Assembly: GCA_039583875.1 (NCBI GenBank)
Contig: CM077165.1
Span: 71,412,757 to 71,476,756 of the forward strand
Origin: Platanthera guangdongensis
Taxonomy: Eukaryota; Streptophyta; Magnoliopsida; Asparagales; Orchidaceae
DNA length: 64,000 nt
Direction: 5' to 3'
Shown in pieces: positions 14,578-54,596 of this stretch. Under the pieces are notes generated by a model. It did not search any database and was not told the origin of the DNA. It worked only from the letters and a program-made list of their open reading frames with translations. Both the position numbers and the translations under genes were made by a program. Within the stretch, counting starts at the first letter, position 1. Every line of letters starts with the position of its first letter.

Positions 14578-14700
14578 TGTTGGGTACATTGGAAAATGTG
14601 TACCAGATTTGAAGAAGTCTCACCTTACTCAATGATATGCATCAAGGTGTATTTGATGTTGTTTTGAGTTTATATGTGCAGGTTAAGAAAATGCAAGAAT
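14578..14700 (+). repeat. 5' LTR of A, segment 1
   Basis: The sequence from TGTTGGGTACATTGG to gcaagaat matches 52644-52766 of the 3' LTR almost base for base. The last five bases, AGAAT, are the target duplication of U, after which LTR A resumes at 21008. Confidence 0.9.
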
Positions 14701-17010
14701 TGTAACACCCCCACCTGTCACATGACATATAACGGTGGGTCCGGCCGGGGCCCCACGCCATATCTCACAGACAAGCGAAGGAATCACGTGTGGAAATCAA
14801 CATCGACGCGTATCCTTAACTCATCCATTCTAGCGCAGCATTTTTTTATGTTAGCATGAACTCCAACCAGAATGTCCACCACTATATAAATACCATATTT
14901 ATATATATCACAAACACCAGGAATGTATACAACCCACACACCCTGGCCTTATGGCCTTACAGGTTCCTCTTATATATCGCAAACACCAGGAATGTATACA
15001 ACCCACACACCCTGGCCTTATGGCCTTACAGGTTCCTCTTTTACACAACATTCATTTCATACATCGGCACGCAGGCCGGCCACACATGAAATCCAAACAA
15101 CACTCTTCGCATGGCCTTCAAAGGCCAACAGCAGCAAGCTAGCCATTCCACTTATTCATTTCAAGCCGCGGCACCTGCAATGAGACATCCACCAAAAAGC
15201 GGCAAAACAAAGTAACGGTCAACATTTGGCTGACCCATTATAACGACCCTACCCCCTACCCGGGGTAGTGGTTCCTTCCCTGTATACATTGCTCATCAAG
15301 TATCATCAAACAGCATATCCATATCATTCTCTTTCTTTCGCGAGCAAACACATGACATCACAAACGCTGGAATCCACCAGACGTTCCGTGCACTCAGGGC
15401 ACCTTCTTGGCGTACCGGAATCCACCAGTCATACACCGCCGATCCGAGGTTTTTAACTTGTTGGTTGACCGGCCCTAGTCCACCAGTCTCGCAAGCTGGC
15501 GACATCCCGCCCAACCACACAGAGGTACAACCTCACAGCAATAACCAGAGTAGGTCGACCCACAATATGTGGTGTAGCACGCCGGGTTTATCCAAGCTCC
15601 CCAGGCAATGTCTACCCATCGACCCCCCTCCTAATCCGATCGACCCACACTATGTGGTGCAGCAAGCCGGGTTTACCACGGCTCCCCAAGCATTGCCACC
15701 AATCGACCCCTCTAACTAACTAGATCAACCCACCCTAGTGGTGTAACAGCTCGGGTTTATCACGAGCTCACCAGGCGTGCTACCAATTGATCATATCACA
15801 ACCAGGAGCTTTGCCAAAGCCTCCTCACAAACAGCATCACATCCATACAATCAGCACAAGAGAAAATCATTTCCATCTCATCAAATCCACGGAGTCTCCT
15901 CCGGTTTACTCATGAACATCACCAATCCAGACTACCGGTCTAGATGGGCTTCACACAGCATGCCTATGCCGTACTCCATATTTCCGGCTCTAGATGCAGA
16001 CTCAACAAAGGAATCACTTCACGGATATCCACCTCTTGGTTGAGGATTCCAAGCACATGCATAAAGGAAGGACTTCGATGTCCAAGAAGGAGATCGTTAC
16101 CCTTGAAGACCGCTTCGGCGCCATGAAGTAGCAGGATGGAAATCACCGCCTCGACTTCCCCTTCATGAATCCGCTCTCGGATCTTCGCTCCGCACTCCGC
16201 AGCTCCTACAGCAGCTGGTAGACTCCTCCCTTCCCTCTTGCCGTAGCCTTTCTTCCTCCCGTGCTTAAAAGAAATGAAGAAGAAGAAGAAGAAAAGAGGG
16301 ATTAAATCCCCTTTTTCTCGGCCTTCACCACACCTGGACAGAGTCCAACCATTGGATCCAGGAAGAGGGAAACAAACGGCTCAGATTCGGCCAGAAAAGC
16401 TAAAACACGGCCTGACACGCCCTGTGGCACGCCCGTGTCACAGGCCGTGTCCCTCTAAGCGGCAGTCAACCGACTCAAAACCAACAGTACACGGCCATGG
16501 GACATGCCCGTGTTCCATGTCGTGTCCCTGATACGCCCTCAGACATGCCCGTGTCTGAGGCCGTGTGCCTCAACGAAAATAATCCCAAAATAACCCGAGA
16601 CTTCACGCGGCCGGGCACACGCCCGGTGTTCTGGGTCGTGTGCACCTGGACACACCCGTGTCCCGCAAACACGCCCTAGCTCGAAACGTCGAGTTGAGTT
16701 CGACGACCACTGACACGCCCTGTGACACGCCCGTGTCACAGGCCGTGTCCTCACTCGACCCTCGACACTCGACGATCGTCGAGCAAAATTCGTCGACATC
16801 AACGCCGATCGCCGACACAGCCCCGACACGCCCTGCGACACGCCTGTGTCGCAGGCCGTGTCCGCTGTGTCGACTCCAAATTTCGTCGACTTCATGACTC
16901 GACACTACCCAGGCCTGACACGCCCTGGGACACGCCCGTGTCCCAGGCCGTGTCACCCATGCCTGACCCGATTTTGCTCAAATTGCTCCGCTTGACTTCG
17001 GGGTGTTACA
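14701..17010 (-). repeat. Left (3') LTR of U
   Basis: This copy is about 2 percent different by eye from the right copy over the first 170 bases. It includes a two-copy tandem repeat of period 69 (about 14901-15038, unit with caccaggaatgtatacaacc). Three diverged repeats of about 85 bp with a gggttta core lie at 15557-15790, and the dyad array is at 16405-16955. It holds no credible gene; open frames over 16274-17273 follow the dyad repeats. Confidence 0.9.
16405..16955 (-). promoter_or_regulatory. Array of long CG-rich quasi-palindromes in the U LTR
   Basis: At least five units of about 38 bp have the pattern GACACGCC-stem-ACGCCCGT-complementary stem-GGCCGTGTC. They centre near 16432, 16545, 16729, 16843 and 16936. 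The stem hexamers differ between units but remain complementary within each unit. Between them lie cgacgatcgtcg-type dyads (16770). The array is near the U3 end on the element strand. Confidence 0.75.
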
Positions 17011-17030
17011 ATCCTCCCCCCCCCCCCCTT
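17011..17030 (-). other. Polypurine tract of U
   Basis: On the minus strand the tract reads AAGG, continues in a run of 13 G, and ends AGGAT directly before the LTR start TGTAACACCCC. Confidence 0.85.
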
Positions 17031-17358
17031 CAAATAATTTCGGCCTCGAAATTTGACTCCAATCAGCCACAACATCATCAAAGCTTACACCCCAAGCCTC
17101 CGCACAAACTAACAAACATACAACACAAACGAACATCCCTATCTTCCACTTGTGCACATTCAGCCACAGAAGACCTCAAAACAAAACAACACAATTTATT
17201 TATCTCCTCACAATCACAAGTGCACCAAGTTTTGATAGATATGTACACCATCTTTTATTCATCACAATTATAGATATAAACATAGTTTACATACACCACC
17301 ATGGACAATTCAGCAAGTTACTCTTCAGTCATAGCATCGACGTGCTTCACATCACACG

Positions 17359-18525
17359 TCACTTCCGCTCAACCTCCCGATTTTGAAATTCACGATTAAG
17401 CGACAAATTAAACACCCGAGACTGAATTTCACCAACTGAGCTTTGTGGCTCTTGCACGTCCATAGCATGAAATCGTGGTTGCGTCCGGGGTGCAGATGAC
17501 TCGGCCACTGCTTTTCCCTTTTCTTCATATGACGCTCCTATCTTTTTCTCACTCCCTGGAGGGGCATTCCGACAGAATTTTGCTATATGTCCTTGCTGCC
17601 CGCATTTATAGCATATACGTGTATCCACACGTCCTGACCCATAAGTCGCCCCCGAAGAAACAGTCGACGGAGCTGATTCCGCCGGCCTATATCTTTTCTT
17701 CTCTTGTCGTCAAAATTCTGAGTGATCCAACTACGACACTTTCAACTCTGACTTTTCCACTGCCAGTCGCTTATTCGCTGGTACTCGCTTCATATCTTTT
17801 TCCAATGCACGAGCTGTATCGACTAATGCTTGGAAGCCTTGGCTCACTGAACTCGGAAGTGCCAACCTCAATTCATCCCGCAAGCCTTCATAAAACCGAT
17901 TTGTCTTTCGTGCTTCCTCCGCAAAGTTCGATCCCGCATATCTCCCCAATCTTGTAAACTCATGCAGGTAGGTATCAATCTCTCGCTCACCCTGCACCAA
18001 ACGGAGAAATTCATTTTCCATCGCAATCCTCTGCGACACTGGTACATACTTGGCTAAAAATATTTGGGAGAATTCCTCCATGGAAACCTCCGTTAAACCT
18101 CGACCTGCCAAGTGATGAACTTCAATTTCATCCCACCACAATCTCGCATCTCCTTCCAACAGAAAAGTGGCCAACAACACTTTCTGTTCCTCGACCGTCC
18201 GGATTGCGGTCAGGATCCTTTTTACCCTTGCCAACCAATCTTCCGCCTGCATTGGGGAAAGCGCTCCACCAAACGTCGGTGGATGAAAGTGCATAAAACG
18301 TGTCAATGACTCGTCACTTACTTGCGCCTCCACCACCACTGCAGCATGCTCTTGCCTTCCACCAGGTCTTGCTTGTCCAGTAGGTTATGCTTGTAACACT
18401 GCAAGCACTGTCTCCGTCACCACCCGTATGGCTTCTGCCGAGGGAGGCATAGGCGCTTCCGCGGGTGCTGCACTCTCAGCAGACCGCTGGGGCTCAGACG
18501 GCCCAGCTCGATCCCTCGCCACCTA
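17359..18525 (-). pseudogene. Gag of U (capsid and zinc knuckle)
   Basis: The minus-strand frame 17731-18339 gives a typical gypsy gag core: HPPTFGGALSPMQAEDWL, GDARLWWDEIE, then EFSQIFLAKYVP, LVQGEREIDTYLHEFTRL and RFYEGLRDELR. It ends in two in-frame stops (TAG then TGA, near 17731-17710), after which the same frame (17359-17628) carries the zinc knuckle CYKCGQQGHIAKFC. Upstream the same frame extends to about 18525 through one TAA, with RAGPSEPQRSAES as in T. At the expected start both T and U read taggtg, so GTG stands where ATG is expected. Downstream to the polypurine tract there is no further coding sequence. Gag would assemble particles and bind RNA; with three stops this copy is probably inactive. 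Confidence 0.85.
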
Positions 18526-18670
18526 TCAATGTACAGAACACCATTAATACATCCAATCATAATGGTACTGCTACATTGACTACACACTCACGCACATCAT
18601 GTGCATGACATACATTCCTAGTGGACATTCATGAGTTCATTTAGGTTCTCTCCTCCCAAACAATCTAAAC

Positions 18671-18685
18671 CTCGCTCTGATACCA
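18671..18685 (-). other. Primer-binding site of U, initiator-Met tRNA
   Basis: On the minus strand TGGTATCAGAGCGAG starts 3 bp after the LTR end (TTACA, then AAG). It matches the usual initiator-Met primer site of plant LTR elements. Confidence 0.9.
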
Positions 18686-18688
18686 CTT

Positions 18689-21002
18689 TGTAATGCCCCC
18701 ACCTGTCACATGACATATAACGGTGGGTCCGGCCGGGGCCCCACGCCATATCTCACAGACAAGCGAAGGAATCACGTGTGGAAATCAACATCGACGTGTA
18801 TCCTTAACTCATCAATTCTAGCGCAGCATTTTTTTATGTTAGCATGAACTCCAACCAGAATGTCCACCACTATATAAATACCACATTTATATATATATCA
18901 CAAACACCAGGAATGTATACAACCCACACACCCTGGCCTTATGGCCTTACAGGTTCCTCTTATATATCACAAACACCAGGAATGTATACAACCCACACAC
19001 CCTGGCCTTATGGCCTTACAGGTTCCTCTTTTACAAAACATTCATTTCGTACATCGGCACGGAGGCCGGCCACACATGAAATCCAAACAACACTCTTCGC
19101 ATGGCCTTCAAAGGCCAACAGCAGCAAGCTAGCCATTCCACTTATTCATTTCAAGCCACGGCACCTGCAATGAGACATCCACCAAAAAGAGGCAAAACAA
19201 AGTAACGGTCAGCATTTGGCTGACCCATTATAACGACCCTACCCCCTACCCGGGGTAGTGGTTCCTTCCCTGTATACATTGCTCATCAAGTATCATCAAA
19301 CAGCATATCCATATCATTCTCTTTCTCCCGCGAGCAAACACATGACATCACAAACGCTGGAATCCACCAGACGTTCCGTGCACTCAGGGCACCTTCTTGG
19401 CGTACCGGAATCCACCAGTCATACACCCCCGATCCGAGGTTTTTAACTTGTTGGTTGACCGGCCCTAGTCCACCAGTCTCGCAAGCTGGCGACATCCCGC
19501 CCAACCACACAGAGGTACAACCTCACAGCAACAACCAGAGTAGGTCGACCCACAACATGTGGTGTAGCACGCCGGGTTTATCCAAGCTCCCCAGACAATG
19601 TCTACACATCGACCCCCCTCCTAATCCGATCGACCCACACTATGTGGTGCAGCAAGCCGGGTTTACCACGGCTCCCCAAGCATTGCCACCAATCGACCCC
19701 TCTAACTAACTAGATCAACCCACCCTAGTGGTGTAACAGGCTGGGTTTATCACGAGCTCACCAGGTGTGCTACCAATTGATCATATCACAACCAGGAGCT
19801 TTGCCAAAGCCTCCTCACAAACAGCATCACATCCATACAATCAGCACAAGAGAAAATCATTTCCATCTCATCAAATCCACGGAGTCTCCTCCGGTTTACT
19901 CATGAACATCACCAATCCAGACTACCGGTCCAGATGGGCTTCACACAGCATGCCTATGCCGTACTCCATATTTCCGGCTCTAGATGCAGACTCAACAAAG
20001 GAATCACTTCACAGATATCCACCTCTTGGTGGAGGATTCCAAGCACATGCATAAAGGAAGGACTTCGATGTCCAAGAAGGAGATTATTACCCTTGAAGAC
20101 CGCTTCGGCGCCATGAAGTAGCCGGATGGAAATCACCGCCTCGGCTTCGCCTTCACGAATCCGCTCTCGGATCTTCGCTCCGCACTCTGCAGCTCCTACA
20201 GCAGCTGGTAGACTCCTCCCTTCCCTCTTGCCTTAGCCTTTCTTCCTCCCTTGCTTAAAAGAAATGAAGAAGAAGATGAAGAAGAAAAGAGAGATTAAAT
20301 CCCCTTTTTCTCGGCCTTCACCACACCTGGATAGAGCCCAACCATTGGATCCAGGAAGAGGGAAACAAACGGCTCAGATTCGGCCAGAAAAGCTAAAACA
20401 CGGCCTGACACGCCCTGTGACACGCCCGTGTCACAGGCCGTGTCCCTCTAAGCGGCAGTCAACCGACTCAAAACCAACAGTACACGGCCATGGGACACGC
20501 CCGTGTTCCATGCCGTGTCCCTGACACGCCCTCAGACACACCCGTGTCTGAGGCCGTATGCCTCAACGAAAATAATCCCAAAACAACCCGAGACTTCACA
20601 CGGCCGGGCACACGCCCGTGTTCCGGGCCGTGTGCACCTGGACACACCCGTGTCCTGCAAACACGCCCTAGCTCGAAACGTCGAGTTGAGTTCGACGACC
20701 ACTGACACGCCTTGTGACACGCCCGTGTCACAGGCCGTGTCCTCACTCGACCCTCGACACTCGACGATCGTCGAGCAAAATTCGTCGACATCAACGTCGA
20801 TCGCCGACACGGCCCCGACACGCCCTGCGACACGCCCGTATCGCAGGCCGTGTCCGCTGTGTCGACTCCAAATTTCGTCGACTTCACGACTCGACACTAC
20901 CCAGGCCTGACACGCCCTGGGACACGCCCGTGTCCCAGGCCGTGTCACCCAGGCCTGACCCGATTTTGCTCAAATTGATCCGCTTGACTTCGGGGTGTTA
21001 CA
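18689..21002 (-). repeat. Right (5') LTR of U
   Basis: This LTR starts TGTAATGCCC and ends GGGGTGTTACA, with the same internal tandem repeats (18901-19030) and dyad array (20405-20945) as the left LTR. No gene is seen. Confidence 0.9.
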
Positions 21003-21007
21003 AGAAT

Positions 21008-22662
21008 GCAGGAAAAAGTTTCTAAGTCCATGAGTGGACACCTGAAGAAGCTGTGTCGACACTTATGAAGGCTTGTGTCGACACTGGAGAAAAGCTGTGT
21101 CGACACTTGGAGATAATTGTGTCGACACTTGGAAAGGCTGTGTCGACACCAGAAGAAACTGTGTCGACATACAGAGGTAGTGTCGACACACAGAGAAGCA
21201 TAGTAGACATCAACTGTGTAGAAAGTTTAGTCGACATCAACTGTGTCGACACACAGAGGCAGTGTCGACACACAGAAGCTTAGTTGACATTAATTTTGTC
21301 GACACACAGAGGCAGTGTCGACACACAGAAGACTTTGTCGACATCAACTGTGTCGACACACAGGACTTGTGTCGACACATGGCAGAATCTCAACAAAGTA
21401 AATTTGTGAAAAGAAAAGAAGTGACTGTGTCGACACCATGAAACTACTGTCGACACAATCTACAGAAGCTGTGTCGAGAAGCAGTGTCAACACCAAGGAA
21501 GCTGTATCGACATCACCAAGGCTTGTGTCGACACTTAGTCTACTTGTGTCGACACATGATGAAGTTCAGTCTCGATACTTTGCTGACAGAGACAGAGTTT
21601 CAAGAAGTGACTGGATGACTTGATAGCTGTCATTACCAACCGGTCTACTGCAACTGTCAGAGCTATCAGAAGTTTGTTAGAAATCTGATCAGCCGGTTAC
21701 CATGGAGGAAGACTATATAAAGGCATTCTCCATCAACAAATTAATGGGAACGAATACTGAAAAATAGAAAAGAATAAACTTATATAATCACAAAAACTGA
21801 AGAATATTTTCGTTAGAAGATCTAAGAAGAAGTTGGAGAGAGAGAGCTCCATCTTTTGAAGTGAAGAAAGGGACTTAAATCTACAAGTCCCTCAATTGCA
21901 GATCCTGAACCAGTCTGCTAAGAAGGATTCAGATTGAGATCTGAATTTCAAGAAAGAAGCTGATTGAAGATCAACTTCAAAGGAGTTCAACCCTACTAAG
22001 TTCAGATTCAAGAAGCTTTGAAGTAAGCTAAGAGTGGTTGTTCTCTGCCATCAGATTCTTCCAAGAATTGATCAAGAAGCCATCCATCTTTTCTCTCTCT
22101 ACTAGGGTGGTGGTATATTACAAACTTAAATCAATTTTCTATAGGATCTTTATAAGATCTGAGTTGTAAGCCTGTGTTTATATAAAGGTTGAGTTGTAGG
22201 AGATTATTTTCTCTAAGTGGTAGGCCTTATTGAAGGCTGAGGTAGGGCTGTGAGCCTGAGTTATAGGAGATTGTTATCTCTGAGTTGTAGGACTTGTTGA
22301 AGGCTGAGGTAGGGCAGTTTGCCTGAGCTATAGGAGTGTGGACTCACTCTGAGTTGTAGGAGCCTTGTTGGGTCCTGAGCTATAAGATCTGAGGATCTGA
22401 GGTGAAGAGAAGAAGTTAGGCCGAATCTAGCACACTACTAGATAGGCGAAGGGGGAAAGTGGATGTACCCAGACCTTGGGGAACCACTATAAAATTTGTG
22501 TGCAATCTGTGATTGTGTGATTCTGTGAATTATGTGTTGTGTTAGCTGTAGAATTAACTGTTTCTAGGTAATTAACTGAATAGATATTCTGCCTTAAAAA
22601 GAAAAAGGAATTACACCTATTCACCCCCCCCCCCTCTAGGTGTTTAGGAACTAATTCTTTCA
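21008..22662 (+). repeat. 5' LTR of A, segment 2
   Basis: The LTR resumes after U with gcaggaaaaagtttc and ends ctaattctttca at 22662. It contains the GTGTCGACAC array, the TATA box at 21714-21722, runs of gagttgtagg-type words (22190-22390), gaaccactataaaa (22486) and cacctattcac-C11-tctaggtg near the end (inverted CACCTA/TAGGTG). With segment 1 its length is 1778 bp, against 1811 bp for the 3' LTR. Confidence 0.9.
21048..21722 (+). promoter_or_regulatory. GTGTCGACAC array and TATA box in the A 5' LTR
   Basis: Roughly 18 copies of the perfect 10-bp palindrome GTGTCGACAC or one-mismatch forms are spaced about 20-35 bp apart from 21048 to 21560. TATATAAAG is at 21714-21722. The 3' LTR has the same array at 52795-53345 and its TATA box at 53502-53510. 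Confidence 0.75.
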
Positions 22663-22664
22663 AG

Positions 22665-22676
22665 TGGTATCAGAGG
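22665..22676 (+). other. Primer-binding site of A, initiator-Met tRNA
   Basis: TGGTATCAGAGG starts 2 bp after the LTR end TTTCA. It matches the initiator-Met tRNA 3' end over its first 11 bases. Confidence 0.9.
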
Positions 22677-22742
22677 GAGGTTCCTCAAAGTTATACTTAA
22701 CAGTCTGAGTGAGATCTGTAAGGCAAAATTAAGATCAAGAAG

Positions 22743-24778
22743 ATGGGTTCAGAAGAAAACCATAAAGAACTTGGTTCAATGAAATTGCCCATTTGCAGGA
22801 AAGAGATATTTGGAATATGGAAGGAAAGGGTCAGATTATTTATGGAGGCATCTGATCTTAGAATTTACATAACAGTTAGGGAAGGACCATATGTTCCTAT
22901 GAAGATTTCTGTTCTTGTTGCCAATCAAAGAATTCCAAAGGATTTTTCAGAGATGACTAAAGATGAGATCATCTTGGCAACAACGGATAAAAGAGCACAA
23001 GATATTATAGTAAGTGTCATTGATGATTCAACATTCCAGAATCTAATTCATTGCAAAACCTCTAAGGAAATGTGGGACACATTGATACTCTATATGGAGG
23101 GTTCTGAAGAGGTTAGGCAAGATAGAAAATCTATACTTAATCAAGAATATGAGAGTTTCAGACAAGCCAAGTCTGAAAGTATTACTGAATGTTATAAGAA
23201 GTTCTATAGGATTGTCAATGAACTTATGTCATATGGAAGAGTTTTCAGTACTTATGAGTTAAATGATAAATTCCTTAGGTCTTTGACTAAGTATTGGGAT
23301 ACAAAAATCTGTGCCATAAGGGAAGTGGCCAGACTGGCTGAGATTTCTCCTCTAACACTGTTTGGAAAATTGCTGTCTTATGAGATGCAGCTGTTGGCCA
23401 GAAAGGAGAAGAGAAAAACATAAAGGGTGACTATAAAGAAAAGTCAGTGGCTTTCAAGGTTGAAGCTACAAGGAAGAATAGGAAAATGTCTCCATCTTTT
23501 TCCTAAGAGAGATGCAGAAATGATTTCAAAAAATTCAGATAATCCCAGTTCAGACAGCAGTAATTCAGATGAAGACTTTGCAGCATTTACCAGGCAGTTC
23601 CAGAGATTCTTAAAGAAGAAGCAGTGGAAATCTAAGCCTTCCACATCTCTGTCCAGGGATGATTATTATCATAAGAGGAAATCATTCAGGAAGGACAGGA
23701 ATGGGACAAAGCCTAGCAAGTCAACTACATCCAAGAATATATGCTATTGCTGCAACAAAGCTGGACATGTTGTGGCTGATTGTCCAGACAAAAGGAAGGA
23801 GTCAGCTAATAGGAAGAAGTCACAGCACAAGAGCAAAAAGGAGAAATCCTTGGTTGCTGAGAAAGAGAAAAGTTTGACAGATCAATCAACTTCAGAGTCT
23901 GAATCTGAGACTGAGGCATACATTGGTTTGTTTGCAGAAGAAGAGGATGAGTTCATGCAATTACTGGACTCTCTCTATGAGCAGGAAGACTATCAGTGCA
24001 AAGGATTGATGACAGTGTCTGAAGAAGACCAGTGTTAGGATCAGCCTGGCCCTAGTAAGGTAAAATGTGTATCTGTAGATTCTGATTATTTCACTGGGTC
24101 AGAATCAGAAGCATCTCCATCAAGACATGAAGATGGGTCTGAATCCGAAGGAGATATTCATCAGTTGATAGATGAATATGGAGATTTATTGCATGCACTT
24201 TAGAGAACCAAAAACCTGGCCAAAACTCAAGCTAAGGAAATTGCAGCTCTTAAGTTGGCTGCATTTGATTTAGAGAAGCTGCTGGATCAAAAGATGAATA
24301 AGATTGCCAAATTGAAGAACATAACTGTTATTCAAATGGGAACAATCACTTTCAAAAATGATCAGATTAAAAGTCTGGAGAATAGACTTCAGAAAGAGAA
24401 GGAGATTGTGCCTAGTTTCTCTAAGCCAAATCTGTATTACCCTTGATTGATGAGTTTGTGTCTCAAAATGGTAAGGTAGGAATAGGTTTTAAGAAAACTG
24501 CATGGGCTGAACAGTCCAATAAGAAAGGCAAAGCCCCAGTACAAAACAAAAGACCTGTTGTAAACAATACAGCTAAGGTTATACCTAAAAAGAGGTATAA
24601 TAAGTTTGAGTGCTGGTGCTGTGGAAAGATAGACCACTATGCCTTAGACTGTTGGCACAATACCAGTGTCAAGGAGAGTAGCAGTCTGCCTGTTAGAAAA
24701 GCTGCAGGCAGATTTGTTAAGTTTCAGACTAACTTGAACCAAGGACACAAAAGTTATTTGGGTTCTAAGGTTAAGTAA
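22743..24778 (+). pseudogene. Gag of A (Sirevirus-type, two zinc knuckles)
   Basis: The ATG at 22743 opens a copia gag with IWKERVRLFMEASD, then KEMWDTLILYMEGSEEV and NELMSYGRVFSTYELNDKFL. The frame stops at 23421. The neighbouring frame is needed for about 100 bases (23400-23505), a pair of compensating indels. After that the first frame continues with a Ser/Asp/Glu-rich stretch and knuckle CYCCNKAGHVVADC (about 23740). Acidic and coiled-coil-like segments follow to 24446, with stops at 24036 and about 24200. A further shift leads to 24443-24778 with a second knuckle CWCCGKIDHYALDC. This last part is in frame with pol and separated from it by one TAA (24776). A large gag with two knuckles is usual for Sireviruses. 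The copy is damaged. Confidence 0.85.
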
Positions 24779-24784
24779 TCTTTA

Positions 24785-27700
24785 TTGCAGGTGAGTCTAA
24801 GTTGTCATACCCCTATATGGTACTTGGACAGTGGATGTTCCAGGCATATGACTGGAATAAGGGGATTCCTGAAGGACTACTCACCAATGCTGAATGGGCC
24901 TAAAGTAATCTTTGGTGGTTCTGAAAAGGGAGTCATCAAAGGTTTTGGTAACATTTCTAATAACTCAATTACAATCACTCAAGTGGCCAATGTAAAGGGT
25001 TTGAAACACAACCTAATTAGCATATGTCAGCTTAGTGATTTAGGTTATGACATTTCATTTGTCAAGAATGGTTGTCATATCAAAAGGTCAAGTGATCAAG
25101 AGGTCATATTGACTGGATATAGAAAAAGAAATGTATATTGCCTAGACTTTGTGTGTGAGAATAAAAATTCTCCTATCTGTCTTGTGGCTGATGAGAAAGT
25201 CTCTCATTGTGTCAAATGGCACAAGAGGCTAGCTCATCTTAACTACAAGATCATTGGCCAACTCTTTAGCAAAGAGTTAGTGAGGAATGGTCCTCAAGTT
25301 AAGTGTTATAAGGATGGAATATGTTCAGCTTGTCAAAAAGGCAAGCAGACTAGATCCTCCTTTCATAGCCTTGAAATCAAGGATTCAGTGAGGTGCTTGT
25401 ACCTCTTGCATATGGATTTATTTGGTCCTATGCCAGTTCAGAGTCTAGGTAGGAAGGTCTACACTTTTGTGGTTGTAGATGACTATTTTAGATTCTCATA
25501 GGTATTCTTTCTGAGGCAGAAATCTGAAACCCCAAGGGTATTCTACAATTTTGTCAAACAAATTCAGAATGAATTAAATAGTTCAGTGGTCAAAATCAGA
25601 AGTGACCATGGAACTGAATTCCAATCTGAAAGTATGACAAGGCTGAGTGAAGAGTTTGGGATTCATCAGGAATTCTCCTCACCTAGAACACCTCAGCAAA
25701 ATGGCATTGCTGAGAGAAAGAATAGGACATTGATTGAGGTTGGAAGAACACTATTGAGTGATACTTCTCTCCCATAATATTTCTGGGCTGAGGCAGCTAA
25801 CACTGCATGTCATGTGCTCAATAGGGCTTCGATCACCAAAAGCCACAAAAAGACACCCTATGAGGTTGTGAAAGGCAGAAAACCAAACTTATCCTATTTT
25901 AGGATCTTTGGTTGCAAGTGCTATGTACTTACCAATGGCAAATCTCACCTATCTAAGTTTACTGCCAAATCACAAGGTGGGATATTTGTTGGGTACAACA
26001 ATAATAGTAAGGCTTATAGGGTCTACAACTTGGCTACTCAAGTTGTAGAAGAGTCAGTTCATATCATCTTTGATGAAACTAGACTTATTAACAGTGAGTT
26101 GCCAAGAAGTTCTTGTAGTTCCATAGATATACAGCAAAAGATGGACCAGCTTACTATCAGAGAAGTTCCAACTGCAAAGATGGATGAGGAAAATGGTAGT
26201 TGCTATCCAGGGGGAGTACAAGGCACTCAAGATGTTGATGAAGATCATGAGGTGCAACATAATGAAGAGATTGGAGAAGGCCAAACTGCTGATAGATTAC
26301 CTCCAGCAGTTAGACAATTGAAGGATCATCCTGCACACCAGATCATTGGTGATCTAAGACAAGGAGTACAAACAAGGAGCAGGAACTTGAACACAGTTCT
26401 TTTCTCTAGCTTCTCATCTCAAGTAGAACCCAAGAGATTTGAAGAAGCTGTTAAGGATCCACACTGTATTGATGCCATGCAGGAGGAGTTAAATCAATTC
26501 AGAAGGTGCAAGGTCTTGGATTTGGTTCCAAAACCAAAGGGCCACAATGTCATAGGGACAAAGTGGATTTATAGAAACAAGCTTGATGAGAGTGGGATCA
26601 TAGTGAAGAACAAGGCAACGCTAGTTGCCAAAGGATACAGACAGGAGGAGGGCATAGACTTTCATCAGACTTTTGCCTAAGTGGCAAGGCTGGAAGCTAT
26701 CAGGCTATTTATAGCCTATGCAGCATATCAAGGCTTCAAAGTGTTCCAGATGGATGTTAAGTCTGCATTCTTAAATGGAGACTTAAAAGAGGAGGTCTAT
26801 GTAGAGCAGCCCTCAGGTTTTGTTGATCCACTCAATCCTGCTTATGTTTATAGACTTAGGAAAGCTTTGTATGGGTTAAAACAAGCTCCAAGGGCTTGGT
26901 ATGAAACCCTGTCTACTTTCTTCATTGAGAACAAATTCTCAAGGGGGAAAATAGATAAGACTCTATTCCTTAGGGAATCCAAAGGAAAGATTATCCTAGT
27001 CCAAATATATGTTGATGACATAATATTTGGGTCTACTGAAAGTAACCTTTGTAGAAAGTTTGCAAAACTTATGCAAGGGAAATTTGAAATGAGCAGTATG
27101 GGAGAACTTAAGTTCTTCTTGGGTCTCCAAGTAAGACAGACTGATGATGTCTTATCCATATCCCAGTCTAAGTTCACCCTGGAGTTAATTAAAAAGTATG
27201 GTATGGAGTCATCCACTACCATTAGAACTCCTATGGGGACAAGTGTATCTCTTAGCAAAGATGATGCAGGGAAACATGTAGATAAAACTTTGTATAGAGG
27301 AATAGTTAGCTCCCTCCTATATTTGATTGCTAGTAGACCAGATATCATGTATTCTACATGTGTCTATGCTAGGTACCAATCCTACCCTAAAGAATCTCAT
27401 CTTATTGTTCTCAAAAGGATTTTGAGATATCTTAAAGGCACCCCTAATCTAGGCCTTTGGTATCCTAGGAATAGAGATTTTTTACTAATGGGCTATTCAG
27501 ATGCAGACTTTGCAGGTTGCAAAGTAGATAGAAAAAGCACAACAGGCACCTGTCAATTTCTTGGAGAAAGATTGGTGTCTTGGAGCTGTAAGAAGCAGAC
27601 CAGTGTGGCAATATCCACAACTGAGTCTGAGTATGTTGCTGCTGGAAGTTGCTGTGCACAACTATTGTGGATACATCATCAGTTGGAAGATTATGGTATT

Positions 27701-27952
27701 CAGGTAAGTAGAACTCTATTATTATGTGATTCTACTAGTGCTATTTCTATTGCTCATAATCTTATTTCTCATAGTAGAACAAAGCATATAGAAATAAGAT
27801 ACCATTTTCTTAGAGACCATGTAGAGAAAGAAGATATCTCTTTAGAATTTGTTAGTACTGATTTACAACTAGCTGACATGTTTACTAAGCATTTAGATGA
27901 AACTAAATTCAACAATTTCAAAATTGAAATAGGCATGTTGAACATAAATTAG
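24785..27952 (+). pseudogene. Pol of A: protease, integrase, RT, RNase H
   Basis: One continuous frame is interrupted only by three stops (25499 TAG, 25775 TAA, 26678 TAA). In order it reads: protease active site WYLDSGCSRHMTG (about 24820); integrase zinc site WHKRLAHLN and CSACQKGK; catalytic Asp in LLHMDLFGP and in IRSDHGTEF; catalytic Glu in NGIAERKNRT; FGCKCYVL; RT with [25 protein letters not shown] and catalytic box [11 protein letters not shown] (about 27010); RNase H with [20 protein letters not shown] and [14 protein letters not shown]. It ends MLNIN at 27952. Order and motifs are diagnostic of Ty1/copia. The first stop replaces an expected Trp (TGG to TAG) and the second an expected Gln (CAA to TAA), so point mutation explains the loss. 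Length and key residues are otherwise intact. Confidence 0.95.
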
Positions 27953-27975
27953 TTTAACAAATTTTCGCTAAGTAA

Positions 27976-28266
27976 AATTGTGTCGACATCAGAAGTTATC
28001 TGTTTCGACACATAGTAGTTGTTGTCGACATTCCAGGAAAGCGGTGTCGACACTTCAGAGAAGTGGTGTCGACACATCCAGAAGTTGTGTCGACACTTAG
28101 AGTAAACACACAGATTCGTCGACCTCAGATCGTCGAACTCGACAAAAATAAATAGAATTGATGTCGAGACATTAGAAGTCTGTGTCGACACTTTTCAACA
28201 GTGTCGACACATTAAGAGATTGTTGACGTGACTTTTGACCTTCATTACTTAGAAAGGTATAAATAG
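27976..28266 (+). promoter_or_regulatory. Internal GTGTCGACAC array and TATA box before the third ORF of A
   Basis: Between pol (ends 27952) and the third ORF (ATG 28367) lie about nine GTGTCGACAC-type palindromes (27978-28290), the same motif that fills the U3 of this element's LTR. TATAAATAG is at 28258-28266, 101 bp before the ATG. This copies the LTR layout of array then TATA. An internal promoter for a separate transcript is the likely reading, but no transcript data are available. Confidence 0.6.
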
Positions 28267-28366
28267 GTCAACAACATATTCTGTCGACACACTCTCCATA
28301 TTTTCGAGACCAAAACCCTGTGTCGTCAACTTCATTCTTCTCAATCCAAGCTTTCACTCAACCCTA

Positions 28367-29359
28367 ATGGCGCCAAAGCTAGAAAATAATGTCAACGAAG
28401 GTTATGAGCTGGTACACAATGCCTTTGATAATGCGGAACCCGAAATTAAAGCAGTAGTAACCCTAATTGCTGAAAATGGGTTGGAATTTCTGGTATCTGA
28501 ACCAACAAAGATATGGAAGAAGGAAATACTAGATTTCTATGGCGCAGCTACTTTGGATTCTACTGGACATAAGATCAAGTCTACAGTTCAGGGAACTAAG
28601 GTTAAACTTACCTTAAAGAGCTTGAGGAAAACTCTTCAACTTCCAAGAACTCAAGAAGAAGAAGAAGTTCCCTCATCAAAGACTAGGGAAGCACTTCAAT
28701 GGTGTGGATTGGATCCCACCTTGAAGATTGGATCAGCAATGAATAGAAAAGGAATGAATCTATAAGGAAAATTCCTTTCAGAAGTAGTGGGAAAAGTCAT
28801 TCTCTCCAAGCCAGGGGGCATGATAGGATTTCAGCCTATATGTTCAGCCTAATGACCAGGATCATCTACAGACTAAACACAGATTGGTCAGTAGTAATAT
28901 ATGAAAAGATTAAGGAAAATATTAAGAAACCAAATCTGGGAAGGATTATGAGTCACTACTTAACTGGAATAATTCCAGAAGTAATGACACAAACTGCTGG
29001 TTCAAAAATCAACCATATGAGAAGAATGGACATAAGGATCATCTACAGATAGGATAGGGTCCTAACTAAAGATATGTCTGATGAAGAAAGGCAAGAGATT
29101 CGTGAAAAATCACCTGCACAAGATATTGGAGATAGTGCTCAAGTGCAGGGGGAGCCTCATCTTGAGGAAGAGCCAACCCACTTGGAAAGTGAAATGGCTA
29201 CACAGACTATACTTGAGGTAATTCAAGAAATTAATCAATCAATTTTCATTAATAAAGATGAAGCACTAACTGTGTCTTTGGATGATGCTGACCAGAACAC
29301 ACAAAAATGCAGTCAAGCACAAGATGTTATCATGGAGGATACATCTGCTGCTGCTGATG
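28367..29359 (+). pseudogene. Third (env-like by position) ORF of A, 5' part
   Basis: The ATG at 28367 begins MAPKLENNVNEGYELVHNAF. The first frame runs to 28765 (LKSLRKTLQLP near its end), continues past a stop, shifts near 28840 to YMFSLMTRIIYRLNTDW and HYLTGIIPEV, and after a TAG at 29050 becomes acidic with GEP/EEEP segments. It is cut at 29359 by element E and resumes at 50714. Sirevirus elements often carry an ORF here called env-like. I see no signal peptide or membrane span in the preserved frames, so an envelope role is not supported by this sequence. A homologue of its middle part is relic C. Confidence 0.7.
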
Positions 29360-32310
29360 TGATGGGCCCGCGAACAGACTCTTACTGTGGTTGGTTCGGT
29401 GAGTCGATCTCCGCGGTCTTGCTCGGGTAGGCAAGTGCACCTATCGCAAGTAGTACTCGATATTCGGGGGAATACCGAGGTCGTATTGTTCTCGGGGTCG
29501 TGTTGACTATTCTTACTCCTCCGGGAGGACTATTATTTTACTGAAAGTAAGTGGATTTTTTTTTTCTTAATAAAAGACGGAAAAGCAAAAGAGCGAAAAA
29601 ACGATTTAGAAAATATTCGATGAAGGGTTAACGCTCGGCATCGAATCAGATTAAGACAAAAACAATTTTTAATAATTATAGGACTTAGTTTTCAAATTAA
29701 TAATAAGGCAACTTGGCTGTGGAGGTTCCACAAATGTGAGCGCACTTATCTCTAGGAATATTGCTCACCTGAATGTTAAGACTATTCGACCGAACGTTAG
29801 TCCGACGAAGGATTCCTCTTAACGCCCGCTATACGCTAAGAACCCCGCTATTGGGTGGGGAACCCAATCCGGTAGAATTACTCTTGTCCTCTCTCGATGG
29901 TATGCACGCAACTCTATTTACCCAGGGGTGATCGGTCCATATGCACGGCCTCTCGGCTAGCTAGCATATGGACTACGGAAATAGGGCCCACACATCGATA
30001 TGTGGTCCTACGCGTCGTAAACCCGGGGTAAACCTTAAGTGCCTAAATTAAGATGAAAATAAAGAGCTTCAATTATTATAAATCATTTTAAATGTCTCAA
30101 TGCTCTTCGATGCCGAGGCTAATAGCGATTAGCCACACATCGGTATGGGGACGGCTTATAATTTAGTGAGGCGCAAGTTCGAAATTAAACACCAAACGAT
30201 TATAAGAAGGGGACATAAGAAAAATAACAAACATTTAGAAAACTGAAAAATTAGCTAAAACAAGAACTCACGCACACTCCAAATTATAAATTAAACAGGA
30301 ACTAAGTTACACATGAAAGAAATTTGCATATTTAAAATTTGCGAGTCCCACTCAAACGAGTGGGGGCGGTAAATAAAAGCTGAAAATTGCAAGTCCTACT
30401 CAAACGAGTAGGACTGAAATGAAAGCGAGTCCTACTCAAATGAGTAGGAGAAAATAAATGTGATTACAGGGCGATAAAATCCGGCCATTTAACTCAAGTG
30501 AGTAGGCGGAAAAATAAAGAAAGAAAAATTACAAATCCACTCAAACGAGTAGGCGGGAAATAAAGTCCGGCCATTTGAATCAAGTGAGTAGGCGAAAAAT
30601 AAAGAAAGAAAATAACAAGTCCTACTCAAACGAGTAGGACTGAAAATGAAAACGATGCGCCATTTAACTCTTAACGAGTAGGCGGAAATAAATACACATA
30701 GACACATACACTCCATAAGAATTTCAAGTAAGCAATAAAGCTAACACCTACACTCACACACTCTACAAAATTTGAATCAAAGCATAAAAGTTATACACCT
30801 ACACTCACACACTCTACATAATTTGAACAAAGCATTAAAAATTATACTCATACACTCACACAAACAACATGAAAATTTAAGAAGAACAAAAGAAAGTTTA
30901 TTCTCATACACTCACACACACTAATAACAAAGAAAAATCAAAGTTGCTTATAAATGAAAATAACAAGATTTCTACTCCTAAAATTACCCAAAACACATAA
31001 AAAAAGAACAAATAAAAAGAGAATGAGCAAAAAGTTTTACAAAATAAAGTCAAAATCAAAGGTGCTCAAAAATTAAAACTAAAACTTTTTCATTCTTAAG
31101 AATTTATAAAAGTGATAAAAAAGGTGAAGAGAAAATGAAAAGAACAAAAGATGTTTTACAATCCTAAAAGAAAAACTAAGTAAAAAAAAGAACAAATCAC
31201 TTTTCAACCTCATTCATAAATTCATAAGAATGAAATCTTATTACTTTCAAGAAAAAGACATGGTGAAAAAGAGGAAAACCTATCATACCTAAGCATGAAG
31301 ACAAGTTAAAAACATGAATATTAAGCATGTTACACTCATACACACACACACACATTTCATAAATGAAGAACAAAGATGAAACCAAGGATAAAAAGGAGAA
31401 GGAAAGTGGGCACAAGTTTTCATTCCAAAGCCAAATATGAAGAGAAAATTCTAACATTTTTATTACTTAAAGGAAACTATTACAAGCTATTACAAGAGCT
31501 AAAGCTAAAGCAAAAACAAACATGAAAGAAAAGAGGGAGAAATTTCCTTACATAGCTCTAGAAATCACGGATGCAGCCCACAAAAAGACACTAAAAATGG
31601 CCCAAAAATCTGAACCCTTGGACCTTACAGAATTGGGCAATTTATAGGCAAAAAATTCTAAGTACACGCCCTAGGTCACGGGCGTGTAGGGGGGGGGGTG
31701 ACAGTACTATTCATAAAGGCGGCCGGCGATTGGACAGGAAAGTTGACTTCGGGCTAAGTTCGCGGCAGTCACGCCCCAGGTCACGGGCGTGACTCTGGGC
31801 GTGTCGGGGAGGTAGAACCAGGCGCGGGTTGCGCCGAAAGTCTTCGGTAGCATCTTGTCGGGCTAGCTGGAAAGGTCACGCCCCAGGTCACGGGCGTGAC
31901 GCTGGGCGTGTCAGTTGGTGTCGACACTCGACGAATGTCGAGCGGAAAGTGTCGAGTCGAAATCGTCGAGCGGAAATTGAGTCACGCCCCAGGTCACGGG
32001 CGTGACGCTGGGCGTGACGCTGGGCATGACTGTTGGTGTCGACACTCGACGATCGTCGAGCGGAATTCGTCGAGAGGAGGGACACGGGCTTGGTCATGCC
32101 CCGTGTCAGGTGACACGGGCGTGTCGCCAGGCGTGTCAAGCTTGTACTTCAGAAATCGTCCGATTTCACGGGAAATTCAATGTCACGGCCCTGTCACGGG
32201 CGTGACCAAATTATCACGGGCGTGTACTGCCCAATTTTGGCAGATTTTTGAAAGTTTTCTGCAAAAGAAAATAAACAAGTTAGAAGTAAATTTACAAGAA
32301 TAGGAGCATT
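29360..32310 (-). repeat. E LTR copy 1 (outer, lacks its last 89 bp)
   Basis: The copy starts TGATGGGCCCGCG and ends taggagcatt at 32310. The complete LTR continues about 89 bp more (50620-50708). It contains the hairpin array, a stretch of actcacacac-type repeats, a minus-strand TATA (CTATAAAT, 31640-31647) and the dyad array 31665-32225. No gene is seen. Confidence 0.85.
30343..30685. repeat. Array of short hairpins (CCTACTC...GAGTAGG) in E LTRs
   Basis: Eight short inverted repeats lie in tandem at intervals of about 35-50 bp. Examples are CCCACTC-aaac-GAGTGGG, several CCTACTC-aaac-GAGTAGG, ACTCAAGTGAGT and CGCC-atttaACTC-ttaac-GAGTaGGCG. The array also occurs at 33239-33582 and 48656-48996. 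A T-to-C change in one arm is matched by A-to-G in the other in the first unit. Confidence 0.8.
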
Positions 32311-50708: not shown

Positions 50709-50713
50709 TGATG

Positions 50714-52382
50714 CTCCTGAGTTGGTGGTCCCTTAAGTCCCTACTCAACAAGAGTTTACCCTTGAGGAGTTGTTTTCAGATATAGTACAAGCAAGAACTG
50801 AGGGGGAGCAACCTGAATTTGAGGGGGAGAAAGCAGACTTTCAGGGGGAGTAAATCAACATTGAGGAGGAGCAAGTAAGTACTGTGGGGGAGGAGCAAGG
50901 GACTCAGGGGGAGCTACCTAAGACTGCATAGGCATTGTCTCCTAGTCCTAAGGAAAGAGTTGATATTGCCAGTACCTCAGCTTCAGAAGAGGAAGCAGAA
51001 ATTCAAGCTAAGAAAAGAAAGCTAATGGTATTCAAAAGAAGAAGCCAGAACTATAAAAGGGCTTTACAAACTGCTCCACAATCTGCCCCAGCTACTAATT
51101 ATAGTTCCTTGTTGATCTAATTGCAAGTAAAGTTAGATGAACAAAGGATTGCCATGGAGAAATATATGTATGAGACCCACAAAGATCTATAATTCTCCTT
51201 GGCACAAGATATTAAATCTATAAGATTTGAAGTTAATCAGAATAAGAAGGAAATGACTGATTGTTTCCACAAAGGTGGTAATACTGTGGTTTTCCAATCC
51301 ACACATCAAGAAAAAATCAAGTCTCAAGTTGATGATATAGCTCTTAAGCATGGCTATGTCCTAGAGAATCAACTTAGAATGAATGATAATCTGACAGAAT
51401 CACATAATGTGATTGTTATAGAAATGAAGAATATTGCTTCTGCCTAGACTGAGGCAAAGGCTAAAGCCAAGGTAGATTTTGACAATCAATTACAGGAAGG
51501 ACTAGCTGTTGTCCAAACAACTATTAAGGATTCTCAAAAGACTATTTCTGCACAGCTACTGAAGTTAAAGTCCTTTTATAAAGATGGTGTAAATTTTCTT
51601 GATGAACAAATCAGATTTCAAAAAGATGACCTCAAGCATCATATTGCAAGAGAATTCATAAAGGGGGAGAGAATGTTAGTCAAAGCAGGCTCTGATCATG
51701 CTAAATGGATATCTAATAGCATCAGATCCACCCTTGGATATCCACCCCTTTATGATGATGACAATGTAGCTGAGTCAGGTATACACCCTGCTTATTTTGG
51801 AGGTGACCAACCTGAGTTGCTCAGGTCATTTACCCTCCAGCAGATTTTGAAATGATTCACCAAGAAGTACAGTCAATGTACAACAGTCCAGAAGGTGCTC
51901 AAAATATTATCCTTGAGAAAGTAGAAATGCCAGTGCCAGAGGCAGTTTTGAACAAAGAGCAAGAAGCTCTATTATCTAAGAAAAGATTTAGAGAACAGTC
52001 AGAGTTGAAGCCTGATTTTGAGCAGTGGAGTCCAACATCCAGGAACATTATACTGACTGCTTGGAAAGCTGTAAAAGATAAGACCCATGATAGGGGCAAA
52101 TGGTACTTTGAGCAAGAATGGCTAAAGCATGAAGCCAGGCAAGAAGTCATTGTTCAATATAGAGGAAAGGCTAAAACTGGGAAGCTACCTCTTAATGCTC
52201 AGGAGCCTAACAAATATTTTCCCAAAGCCCTTTCACTACTTTGAAAGGCAAAGAATAGGGCTGAAGAGCAAAAGAAGAAAGATCTAAAGGGCAAGAAGCC
52301 AGTTGATGATACTGATGCTCCAGTACAAGCCAAGATCCAATCAGGCAAACGCATAGTTATCAAGGAGCCAGATCAGCTTTAG
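50714..52382 (+). pseudogene. Third ORF of A, 3' part
   Basis: It continues the ORF cut by E. Mostly one frame (through 51673-51855) holds GEQPEFEGEKADFQGE repeats from gggggag codons, then the acidic/basic stretch EEEAEIQAKKRKLMVFKRR and SSLL. A long helical region follows (51199-51660, many Glu/Lys/Gln), then SDHAKWISNSIRSTLGYPP. A one-base shift near 51850 leads to IHQEVQSMYNSPEGAQNII and ILTAWKAVKDKTHDRGKWYF. The end is the TAG at 52380. Stops lie near 50742, 50852, 50929, 51118, 51190 and 51445. The protein looks cytosolic and coiled-coil-like, with no obvious membrane span. Function is unknown. Confidence 0.65.
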
Positions 52383-52630
52383 ATTAGATTTACTTGATTT
52401 TACAACTTTGTAATCTTTAGTGTTGAAATCTATGTAAACTTTTGATTAGAAACTTTTGAAAGTTGAAACAAAACATGATTAATGCTCATTCTGGTTGCAT
52501 TATTATTCTGTGATGACTTTTTATATTTGTTTTGTTTAGAAGTTACCCTGTCATATAATGTTGTTATACATCATAATGTGTATTTGTTATGAATGGTGTA
52601 TATTATTGACTAAGGGTTATGACTTCTCCA

Positions 52631-52643
52631 AATAGGGGGAGAT
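52631..52643 (+). other. Polypurine tract of A
   Basis: AATAGGGGGAGAT lies directly before the 3' LTR start TGTTGGGTAC. Confidence 0.85.
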
Positions 52644-54454
52644 TGTTGGGTACATTGGAAAATGTATACCCGATTTGAAGAAGCCTCACCTTACTCAATG
52701 ATATGCATCAAGGTGTATTTGATATTGTTTTGAGTTTATGTGTGTAGGTTAAGAAAATGCAAGAATGCAGGAAAAAGTTTCTAAGTCCATGAGTCGACAC
52801 CTGAAGAAGCTGTGTCGACACTTATGAAGGCTTGTGTCGACACTGGAGAAAAGTTGTGTCGACACTTGGAGTTAATTGTGTCGACACTTGGAAAGGATGT
52901 GTCGACACCAGAAGAAACTGTGTCGACATACAGAGGCAGTGTCGACACACAGAGAAGCATAGTCGACATCAACTGTATCGACACATAGAGGCATTGTCGA
53001 CACACAGAGAAAGTTTAGTCGACATCAACTGTGTCGACACACAGAGGCAGTGTCGACACACAGAAGCTTAGTCGACATCAATTGTGTCGACACACAGAGG
53101 CAGTGTCAACACACAGAAGACTTTGTTGACATCAACTGTGTCGACACACAGGACTTTTGTCGACACATGGCAGAATCTCAACAAAGTAAATTTGTGAAAA
53201 TAAAAGAAGTGACTGTGTCGACACCACGAAACTAGTGTCGACACAATCTATAGAAGCTGTATCGAGAAGCAGTGTCAACACCAAGTAAGTTGTGTCGACA
53301 TCACCAAGGCTTGTGTCGACACTTAGTCTACTTGTGTCGACACATTATGAAATTCAGTCTCGATACTTTGCTGATAGAGACAGAGTTTCAAGAAGTGACT
53401 GGATGAATTGACAACTGCCATTACTAACCGGTCTACTACAACAGTCAGAGCTGTCAGAAGTTTGTTAGAAACCAGATCAGCTGGTTACCATGGAGGAAGA
53501 CTATATAAAGGCATTCTCCATCAACAAATTGATGTGAACTAATACTGAAAAACAGAAAAGAATAAACTTATACAGTCACAAAAACTGAAGAAGATTTTCG
53601 TCAAAAGATCTAAGAAGAAGTTGGAGAGAGAGAGCTCCATCTTTTGAAGTGAAGAAAGGGACTTAAATCAACAAGTCCCTCAAGTGCAGATCCTGAACCA
53701 GTCTGCTAAGAAGGATTCATATTGAGATCTGAATTTCAAGAAAGAAGCTGATTGAAGATCAACTTCAAAGGAGTTCAACCCTACAGAGTTCAGATTCAAG
53801 AAACTTTGAAGAAAGCTAAGAGTGGTTGTTCTCTGCCATCAGATTCTTCCAAGAACTGATAAAGAAGCCATCCATACTTTATCTCTCTACTAGGGTGGTG
53901 GTATATTAAAACTTAAATCAATTTTTTGTAGGATCTTTATAAGATCTGAGTTGTAAGCCTGTGTTTATATAAAGGCTGAGTTGTAGGAGATTATTTTCTC
54001 TGAGTGGTAGGTATTGTTGAAGGCTGAGGTAGGGTTGTGAGCCTGAGTTATAGGAGATTGTTATCTCTGAGTTGTAGGCCTTGCTGAAGGCTGAGGTAGG
54101 GCAGTTTGCCTGAGCTGTAGGAGTATGGACTCACTCTGAGTTGTAGGAGCCTTGTTGGGTTCTGAGATGTAAGATCTGAGGATCTTAGGTGAAAAGAAGA
54201 AGTTAGGCCGAATCTAGTACACTACTAGATAGGTGAAGGGGGAAAGTGGATGTACCCAGACCTTGGGGAACCACTATAAAATCTGTGTGCAATCTATGAT
54301 TGTGTGATTCTGTGAATTTTGTGCTGTGTTAGCTGTAGAATTAACTGTTTCTGGGTAATTAACTGAATAGATATTCTGCCTTAAAAAGAAAAAGGAATTA
54401 CACCTATTAACCCCCCCCCCCCCCCCTCGAGGTGTTTAGGAACTAATTCTTTCA
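52644..54454 (+). repeat. 3' LTR of A
   Basis: The uninterrupted LTR of 1811 bp is colinear with the two 5' LTR segments. It has the GTGTCGACAC array at 52795-53345, TATATAAAG at 53502-53510, gaaccactataaaa (54279) and a C16 tract (54411-54426) where the 5' LTR has C11. No gene is seen. Confidence 0.9.
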
Positions 54455-54555
54455 CTTTATATTAATCTCTCTCAAATTTTTATTTCACAAAAAGATGTAG
54501 ATCTCACCTATTCAGCCCCCTCTAGGTGATTTAGGTAGACAACTAGATACTTTCA
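54455..54555 (+). repeat. 5' LTR of B, segment 3 (last 101 bp)
   Basis: The segment ends cagccccctctaggtgattt and then tactttca, matching the end layout of LTR A. It continues LTR B after A, and is followed 2 bp later by a PBS. Confidence 0.7.
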
Positions 54556-54557
54556 AT

Positions 54558-54573
54558 TGGTATCAGAGCGAGG
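54558..54573 (+). other. Primer-binding site of B, initiator-Met tRNA
   Basis: TGGTATCAGAGCGAGG starts 2 bp after the LTR end TTTCA, as in A. Confidence 0.9.
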
Positions 54574-54596
54574 TTATTCTCAAAAAGGTTCACACC

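Follow-up and report, generated by a model that had tools for sequence, protein, structure and literature searches.

A candidate internal promoter upstream of the third open reading frame of a Sirevirus in Platanthera guangdongensis

Results

Structure of Sirevirus A

The window, by which we mean the whole 64-kb stretch of DNA analysed, contains on its forward strand a Sirevirus (Sirevirus A) whose 5' LTR and third open reading frame (ORF3) are both interrupted by nested insertions. The 5' LTR starts at 14578..14699 with the same TGTTGGG as the 3' LTR, is interrupted at about 14700-21003 by a nested LTR element (own LTR pair 14700-17011 and 18688-21003), and resumes at 21004..22662, this remainder being 93% identical to 52760-54454; it carries a U3 palindrome array (21032..21578) and the TATA box TATATAAAG at 21714..21722, where the original prediction had correctly placed it. 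The gag-pol region (22743..27952, broken frames, Pfam Retrotran_gag_2, SH3_retrovirus and RVT_2) is followed by a 414-bp linker (27953-28366) and by ORF3, whose first part (28367..29360, open in its first piece 28367-28765 and then in broken frames) is separated by a 21-kb nested insert (29361-50708) from a remainder in broken frames with uncertain limits (50709..52382). Polypurine tracts AGGGGGAG are located at 50801, 50822, 50843, 50906 and 51662, with the terminal one at 52634 (range 50801..52641), extra copies are found at 29147 in ORF3 and 26209 in pol, and the 3' LTR (52644..54454) likewise has an array and, at 53502, TATATAAAG.

The first piece of ORF3 showed 73% identity over 93 aa to the Platanthera zijinensis protein P0001, and the RT-RNaseH piece of Sirevirus A 85% identity to a protein of the same species. 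Assignment of ORF3 to PF20167 was rejected, the Pfam matches being far under the family cut-off. A model predicted for the first piece of ORF3 from two sequences had a mean pLDDT of 44.5 and was not used, and Kyte-Doolittle values, examined with regard to transmembrane segments, were at most 1.03 in every 19-residue window of seven open ORF3 pieces, which cover part of a broken frame. Sirevirus A itself is apparently inserted in the LTR of another Sirevirus (54456-55836); its own 3' LTR is followed by a primer site TATCAGAG at 54561 and, at 54690-55163, by a gag relative with 51% identity.

Several published features of Sireviruses are found in this element. The terminal AGGGGGAG at 52634 lies 10 bp 5' of the 3' LTR (52644), as a Sirevirus polypurine tract does, while the further copies at 50801-51662 fall within the broken ORF3 and those of published Sireviruses mostly after ENV. 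The 5' LTR/PBS junction at about 22662 reads TTTCA AGTGG TATCAGAGG, in agreement with the CA/ATTGG (or AGTGG) TATCAGAGC of Sireviruses, TATCAGAGG differing from TATCAGAGC by one base at the last position. A C-run between CACCT and AGGTG, corresponding to the poly-C integrase signal expected some 21 bp away from the end of the LTR, precedes both LTR ends, and Pfam assigned the RT to Ty1/copia RVT_2. RM boxes, palindromes that number 8 or more in the upper half of the LTR, are represented by 23 copies in each U3, the 3' LTR array beginning 147 bp into the LTR, slightly earlier than the published 200-400 bp, and the additional boxes 5' of an ENV-like ORF by 9 copies before the internal TATA box and 2 between it and the ATG. 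The CGG-CCG core of RM boxes is absent from the window motif GTGTCGACAC.

Palindrome arrays in the linker and the LTR

Palindromes resembling GTGTCGACAC occur 11 times in the linker at up to 2 mismatches (27980 to 28320), 8 times at up to 1 mismatch and 5 times exactly; 9 of the 11, including the 5 exact ones, form the array 5' of the TATA box (27980..28210), which bears out the "about nine" counted originally. In the U3 of the 5' LTR the corresponding numbers are 23, 18 and 14, the earlier figure having been about 18 copies. No such palindromes were present in gag-pol, in either ORF3 part or in the stretch after ORF3. Chance clustering was ruled out by 2000 dinucleotide-preserving shuffles of the linker, in which exact palindromes averaged 0.00 (maximum 1) and those with up to 2 mismatches 0.51 (maximum 4). 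Exact GTGTCGACAC sites are also found at 31918, 32036, 34803, 34909 and 50343, inside a local tandem repeat; these five sites belong to three LTR-like copies of a nested, CpG-normal insert.

As to the proposed duplication of the LTR array, the likeness score between the 7 linker spacers and the 17 U3 spacers was reached by 0.15% of 2000 shuffled-spacer sets and by 0.45% of random gag-pol pieces, and because the spacers resemble each other beyond shuffled and random sequence, the linker and U3 likely have a 21-22 bp unit in common. The two regions differ in their array-to-TATA spacing, which is 57 bp in the linker; in the window LTR it comes to 145-168 bp, varying with the mismatch limit, and at the LTR loci L002 and L011 to 143 bp and 144 bp, and L010 has no TATAWAW after its array. 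This difference in spacing counts against an internal promoter. Around the linker TATA box no copy of the LTR TATA surroundings is visible. Placement of the linker palindromes fitted a 10.5-bp period better than all 5000 random placements, and the best fit in U3 was 11.0 among the periods scanned; this phasing is partly a by-product of the 21-22 bp tandem unit. Across the 4.25-Gb genome the paired pattern GTGTCGACACN{10,14}GTGTCGACAC was found at 555,780 places and its control at 1, and the Sirevirus group with paired palindromes probably fills a large part of the genome.

The internal TATA box and its conservation

The sequence TATAAATAGG lies at 28258, as originally placed; the distance to the ATG (28367) is 109 bp from the TATA start, and 100 nt separate the ATG from the end of the 9-mer TATAAATAG (28258..28266), rather than the 101 bp given earlier. 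This 9-mer occurs on the forward strand of the window only here. Among 5000 linker shuffles, TATAAATA appeared in 0.08%, the looser TATAWAW in 3.2% and TATAWA in 7.4%. Another palindrome (28281..28290, 23-32 bp past the TATA start) lies at the expected start site, and the presumed leader (28288..28366, C+T = 66%) is free of ATG; this freedom is no evidence in itself, since 70% of leader shuffles were likewise ATG-free.

A protein search with the ORF3 N-terminus in the plant's own genome gave 67,334 first-look candidates, of which 150 were scored (89-100% identical), and the 30 best-scoring loci, the window copy and 29 others (L013-L041), were cut out. All 30 have an array in the 480 bp upstream, with between 4 and 15 palindromes when up to 1 mismatch is allowed, and TATAAATA was located at -100 to -109 in 28/30. 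Of the 29 others, 27 keep the TATA box unaltered; the box is missing from L018 and reads TATAAACAG in L032, and these two losses count against an internal promoter. In conservation, TATAAATA ranked second of 149 noncoding 8-mers (mean 0.48; ORF3 coding 8-mers, mean 0.52). Moreover, six stretches were fetched from places with the array pattern, not by TATA, and three of them (L006-L008) are distant copies (ORF3 69%, RT 79-82% identical) that keep both the array and TATAAATAGG. In these copies the 12 bp around TATAAATAGG are 92-100% identical to the window vs 15-31% for the next 13 bp, the start-site palindrome is 90% kept and the bases around the ATG are 92-100% kept; L009, from the same fetch, has pol and the array and has lost ORF3 and the rest of the linker. 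The absence of the array from other family members, which would have spoken against the original prediction, was not found among the copies examined, and the internal TATA box was conserved in most of them as well.

The distance from the last palindrome to the TATA box was 55-57 bp in all 31 TATAAATA-bearing loci not chosen by TATA. Genome-wide, the pattern GTCGACACN{40,69}TATAAATAGG matched 23,466 times on the forward strand and 13,103 times on the reverse, compared with 0 and 1 for its reversed control, a single TATA being countable twice when two palindromes are in range. Twenty loci (L042-L061) were hand-picked for variety from the first listed matches on one contig (C1); they have the TATA box by selection and were excluded from the conservation count. 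With them, the layout of array and TATA reaches subfamilies with about 55% ORF3 identity (L052, chosen by the TATA pattern). The survey of spacing and CpG omits L009, the LTR stretches L002, L010 and L011, L003-L005 (which overlap L002) and L001; the ORF3 start was extrapolated in L042, L044 and L056, and a plain 450 bp upstream of ORF3 served as the linker of L018 and L019.

In viral contigs, no RT relative was found, and the single pattern match (L001), with only two palindromes, was judged to be chance. A Ty1/copia RT with 58% identity to that of the window (P0119) comes from a 2.5-kb contig labelled as the bacterium Robertmurraya kyonggiensis and is probably plant contamination.

CpG retention at U3 and the linker

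The gag-pol region of the window (22663-27952) contains 4 CpG (o/e 0.02), vs 20 in the 414-bp linker (o/e 1.23) and 24 in the 5' U3 (o/e 0.67). The nested elements (o/e 0.85-1.13) and the region after 54455 (0.55) hold CpG, so CpG depletion is not genome-wide in the host. The CpG-rich stretch (27966..28543) covers the array, the TATA box and the ORF3 start, with o/e values of 1.40, 0.99 and 0.56 in turn and 0.04 after 28600, and CpG thus remains elevated past the TATA box for about 230 bp into ORF3 (28367-28600). In the RT-RNaseH frame (26681-27949), none of the 23 arginines has a CGN codon and no NCG codon occurs.

The same shape was found in the survey of 53 loci (L006-L008 and L012-L061), where the median o/e was 1.08 in the linker (0.85-1.39), 0.64 in the first 234 bp of ORF3 (0.24-0.91) and 0.03 in the next 667 bp (exceptions L053 with 0.85 and L060 with 0.78), the last 600 bp of pol having a median of 0.00 (49 loci, up to 0.21). 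The two LTRs of the window copy differ at 9/32 CpG sites vs 74/1594 others (p 1.6e-5), and because the pair differs disproportionately at CpG sites, CpGs decay fast in dead copies; those of the linker and U3 were therefore kept in the active lineage, which is almost CpG-free in its genes and retains CpG at these two places. CpG loss solely after insertion was rejected, since an LTR pair still 93% identical is incompatible with a pol o/e as low as 0.02; in addition, 0.08 was found over the first 1146 bp of ORF3 in a copy of the second family. This is the shape expected of a promoter that is unmethylated or under selection, and retention would result from selection on the motif, from an unmethylated promoter, or from both; because CpGs outside palindromes are also retained (15/26 within 350 bp of a TATA, a cut-off chosen after seeing the data), an unmethylated promoter is favoured.

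Other Sirevirus families in the genome

A second family, matching the protein P0025, had 87 scored copies (94-95% identical to P0025) and is probably young, because many copies keep 1061-aa open frames; one LTR stretch (L064) and two linkers (L062, L063) were read. Half-sites TCGTCGA/TCGACGA number 13 in its U3 stretch and 10 in each linker, and TGTCGACA is absent from all three stretches, while the window family has 18 TGTCGACA in U3 and 8 in the linker vs 0 and 2 of the half-sites. Each of the two families, then, has one motif common to its LTR and its linker, and this motif differs between the families. In the linkers of the second family, TATAAAAC precedes the ATG of ORF3 by 117-118 bp, the interval is free of ATG, and the CpG-rich stretch ends shortly inside ORF3. 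TATAWA is absent from the LTR stretch L064, which counts against an internal promoter. Between the ORF3 of the second family and that of the window the likeness is weak at best (19% across 98 columns, E 0.35), and the former gave no match in a Pfam search.

A third family, matching P0007, had 70 scored copies (91-93% identical to P0007). Both copies read (L065, L066) lack ORF3, their 3' LTR beginning about 300 bp after pol, and between pol and the 3' LTR neither array motif nor TATAWA was found. The 3' LTR part contains a third motif (12 copies in L065, 10 in L066) together with 7 and 2 of the second-family half-sites, respectively. The LTR arrays of this family (L065-L067) are built from the motif GATTCTCG / CGAGAATC.

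Discussion

The expression of the ENV-like ORF has been a standing question in most Sireviruses since at least 2002, and Bousios et al. 2010 described nine Sireviruses with palindromic boxes ahead of ENV, backing an internal promoter without being able to identify one conclusively (PMC2829016). We consider it probable, at roughly three in four, that transcription of ORF3 by RNA polymerase II starts from an internal promoter at 27976-28366, which shares a factor with the LTR, a reading that the conservation of the array and TATA box and the LTR/linker motif sharing of the second family both support. A host (or element) DNA-binding factor would recognise the palindrome in U3 and again in the linker between pol and ORF3, TATAAATAGG at 28258 would position transcription start at about 28288, and the resulting separate ORF3 mRNA would have a leader of about 80 nt without an upstream ATG.

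Among the alternatives, it is unlikely, if less so than the others, that ORF3 relies on splicing of the LTR transcript, which is reported of barley Bagy2, with the array and TATA box serving otherwise. Other plant elements are reported to splice their env-like mRNA (PMC7264820, PMC2829016), and splicing is favoured in the second family because a strong-looking acceptor, TTTTTGCAG/G, precedes the ORF3 ATG by 5 bases in 2/2 copies (L062 at 547, L063 at 570). The best acceptor in the window-family leader (TCCAAG/C, 28350), however, looks weak by eye and is not kept in L006-L008, and splicing leaves the conservation of the TATA box and its fixed spacing unexplained.

Slightly more doubtful is that the internal array acts on the LTR promoter alone, as an enhancer downstream of it or as a target for anti-silencing, with ORF3 having no start of its own. 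The occurrence of the same motif in LTR and linker and the CpG kept in both would suit such a role, but an enhancer has no need of a conserved TATA box, and the linker array is missing from the two ORF3-less copies read (L065, L066) and, in the part of PMC2829016 available, from four ENV-less elements. It is likewise improbable that the array has no part in a promoter and is instead a passive minisatellite or a stretch of RNA hairpins targeted by host small RNAs. The linker RNA folded better than 100/100 shuffles (z -5.9), which makes an RNA role possible, and such a role needs no TATA; palindromic LTR regions of maize Sireviruses are also reported to attract small RNAs (Bousios 2016, via the accessible text of PMC10760457). 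Against this reading, the distance to the conserved TATA box is locked, the arrangement extends to subfamilies with ORF3 identity as low as about 55% (L052, selected through the TATA pattern) and the other family has a different motif at the same place. Readthrough of a stop codon or reinitiation after pol is very unlikely: pol and ORF3 share a frame, but 414 bp with 5 in-frame stops lie between them and an ATG at 28161 precedes that of ORF3, while in soybean SIRE1, likewise a Sirevirus with a third ORF 3' of pol, ORF3 follows just one stop codon and is expressed by its suppression (PMC2829016).

Compared with the Sirevirus RM boxes as described in the available part of PMC2829016, the arrays of the internal promoter proposed here are alike in being high-copy palindromes in U3 before the TATA box and again before the ENV-like gene, in having a single consensus for both places per element and in being CpG-rich; there, too, the linker lacks boxes in the 4 box-bearing elements without ENV. 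Unlike 12 of the 13 motifs listed in that text, GTGTCGACAC has no CGG-CCG core, Tnd-1 being the listed exception, and the Vitis motif CGGTCGACCG has GTCGAC in common with it. A further difference from that text is the conserved TATA box at fixed spacing seen here in many copies. The idea of an internal ENV promoter is accordingly not new, nor is the box layout (PMC2829016, as far as available); what is new relative to it is the motif of the window family and the visible conserved TATA box. Among the titles, abstracts and passages searched, mostly outside subscription journals, we found no report that an internal promoter had been identified for the ENV-like gene of a Sirevirus.

Two other kinds of elements invite comparison, of which Grande is a Gypsy element and VANDAL a DNA transposon. 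Maize Grande gene23 is likewise an extra gene of a plant LTR element with its own promoter, but it is antisense and, in the part of PMC7264820 available, no motif shared with the LTR is mentioned. Arabidopsis VANDAL elements resemble the Sireviruses studied here in having family-specific short tandem motifs in noncoding parts, which change together between related families, and show local loss of CG methylation; their factor is the TE-encoded VANC (PMC5735166 and PMC10398659), whereas the factor of the Sirevirus is putative. This likeness is a lead and not a test. It is conceivable, though we hold it tentative and rather unlikely, that the palindrome arrays are targets of a VANC-like, element-specific anti-silencing or activating system, in which a factor, perhaps the fast-evolving ORF3 protein, would bind the family palindrome at both promoters and block methylation. 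If true, this would explain why CpG is found only at two places and nearly absent elsewhere, why the motif changes jointly in each family and why the internal array appears with ORF3; the main counterpoint is that families without ORF3 and with LTR arrays would need a host or lent factor.

As regards the proposed internal promoter itself, the TATA box at a fixed distance from the array, with more than 36,000 matches in the genome (some TATAs counted twice), offers an exact place for a test. The near-absence of CpG elsewhere may serve as a marker, readable from the sequence itself, of promoters kept by an active retrotransposon lineage, and the match of motifs in two families points to one factor for both the LTR and the linker.
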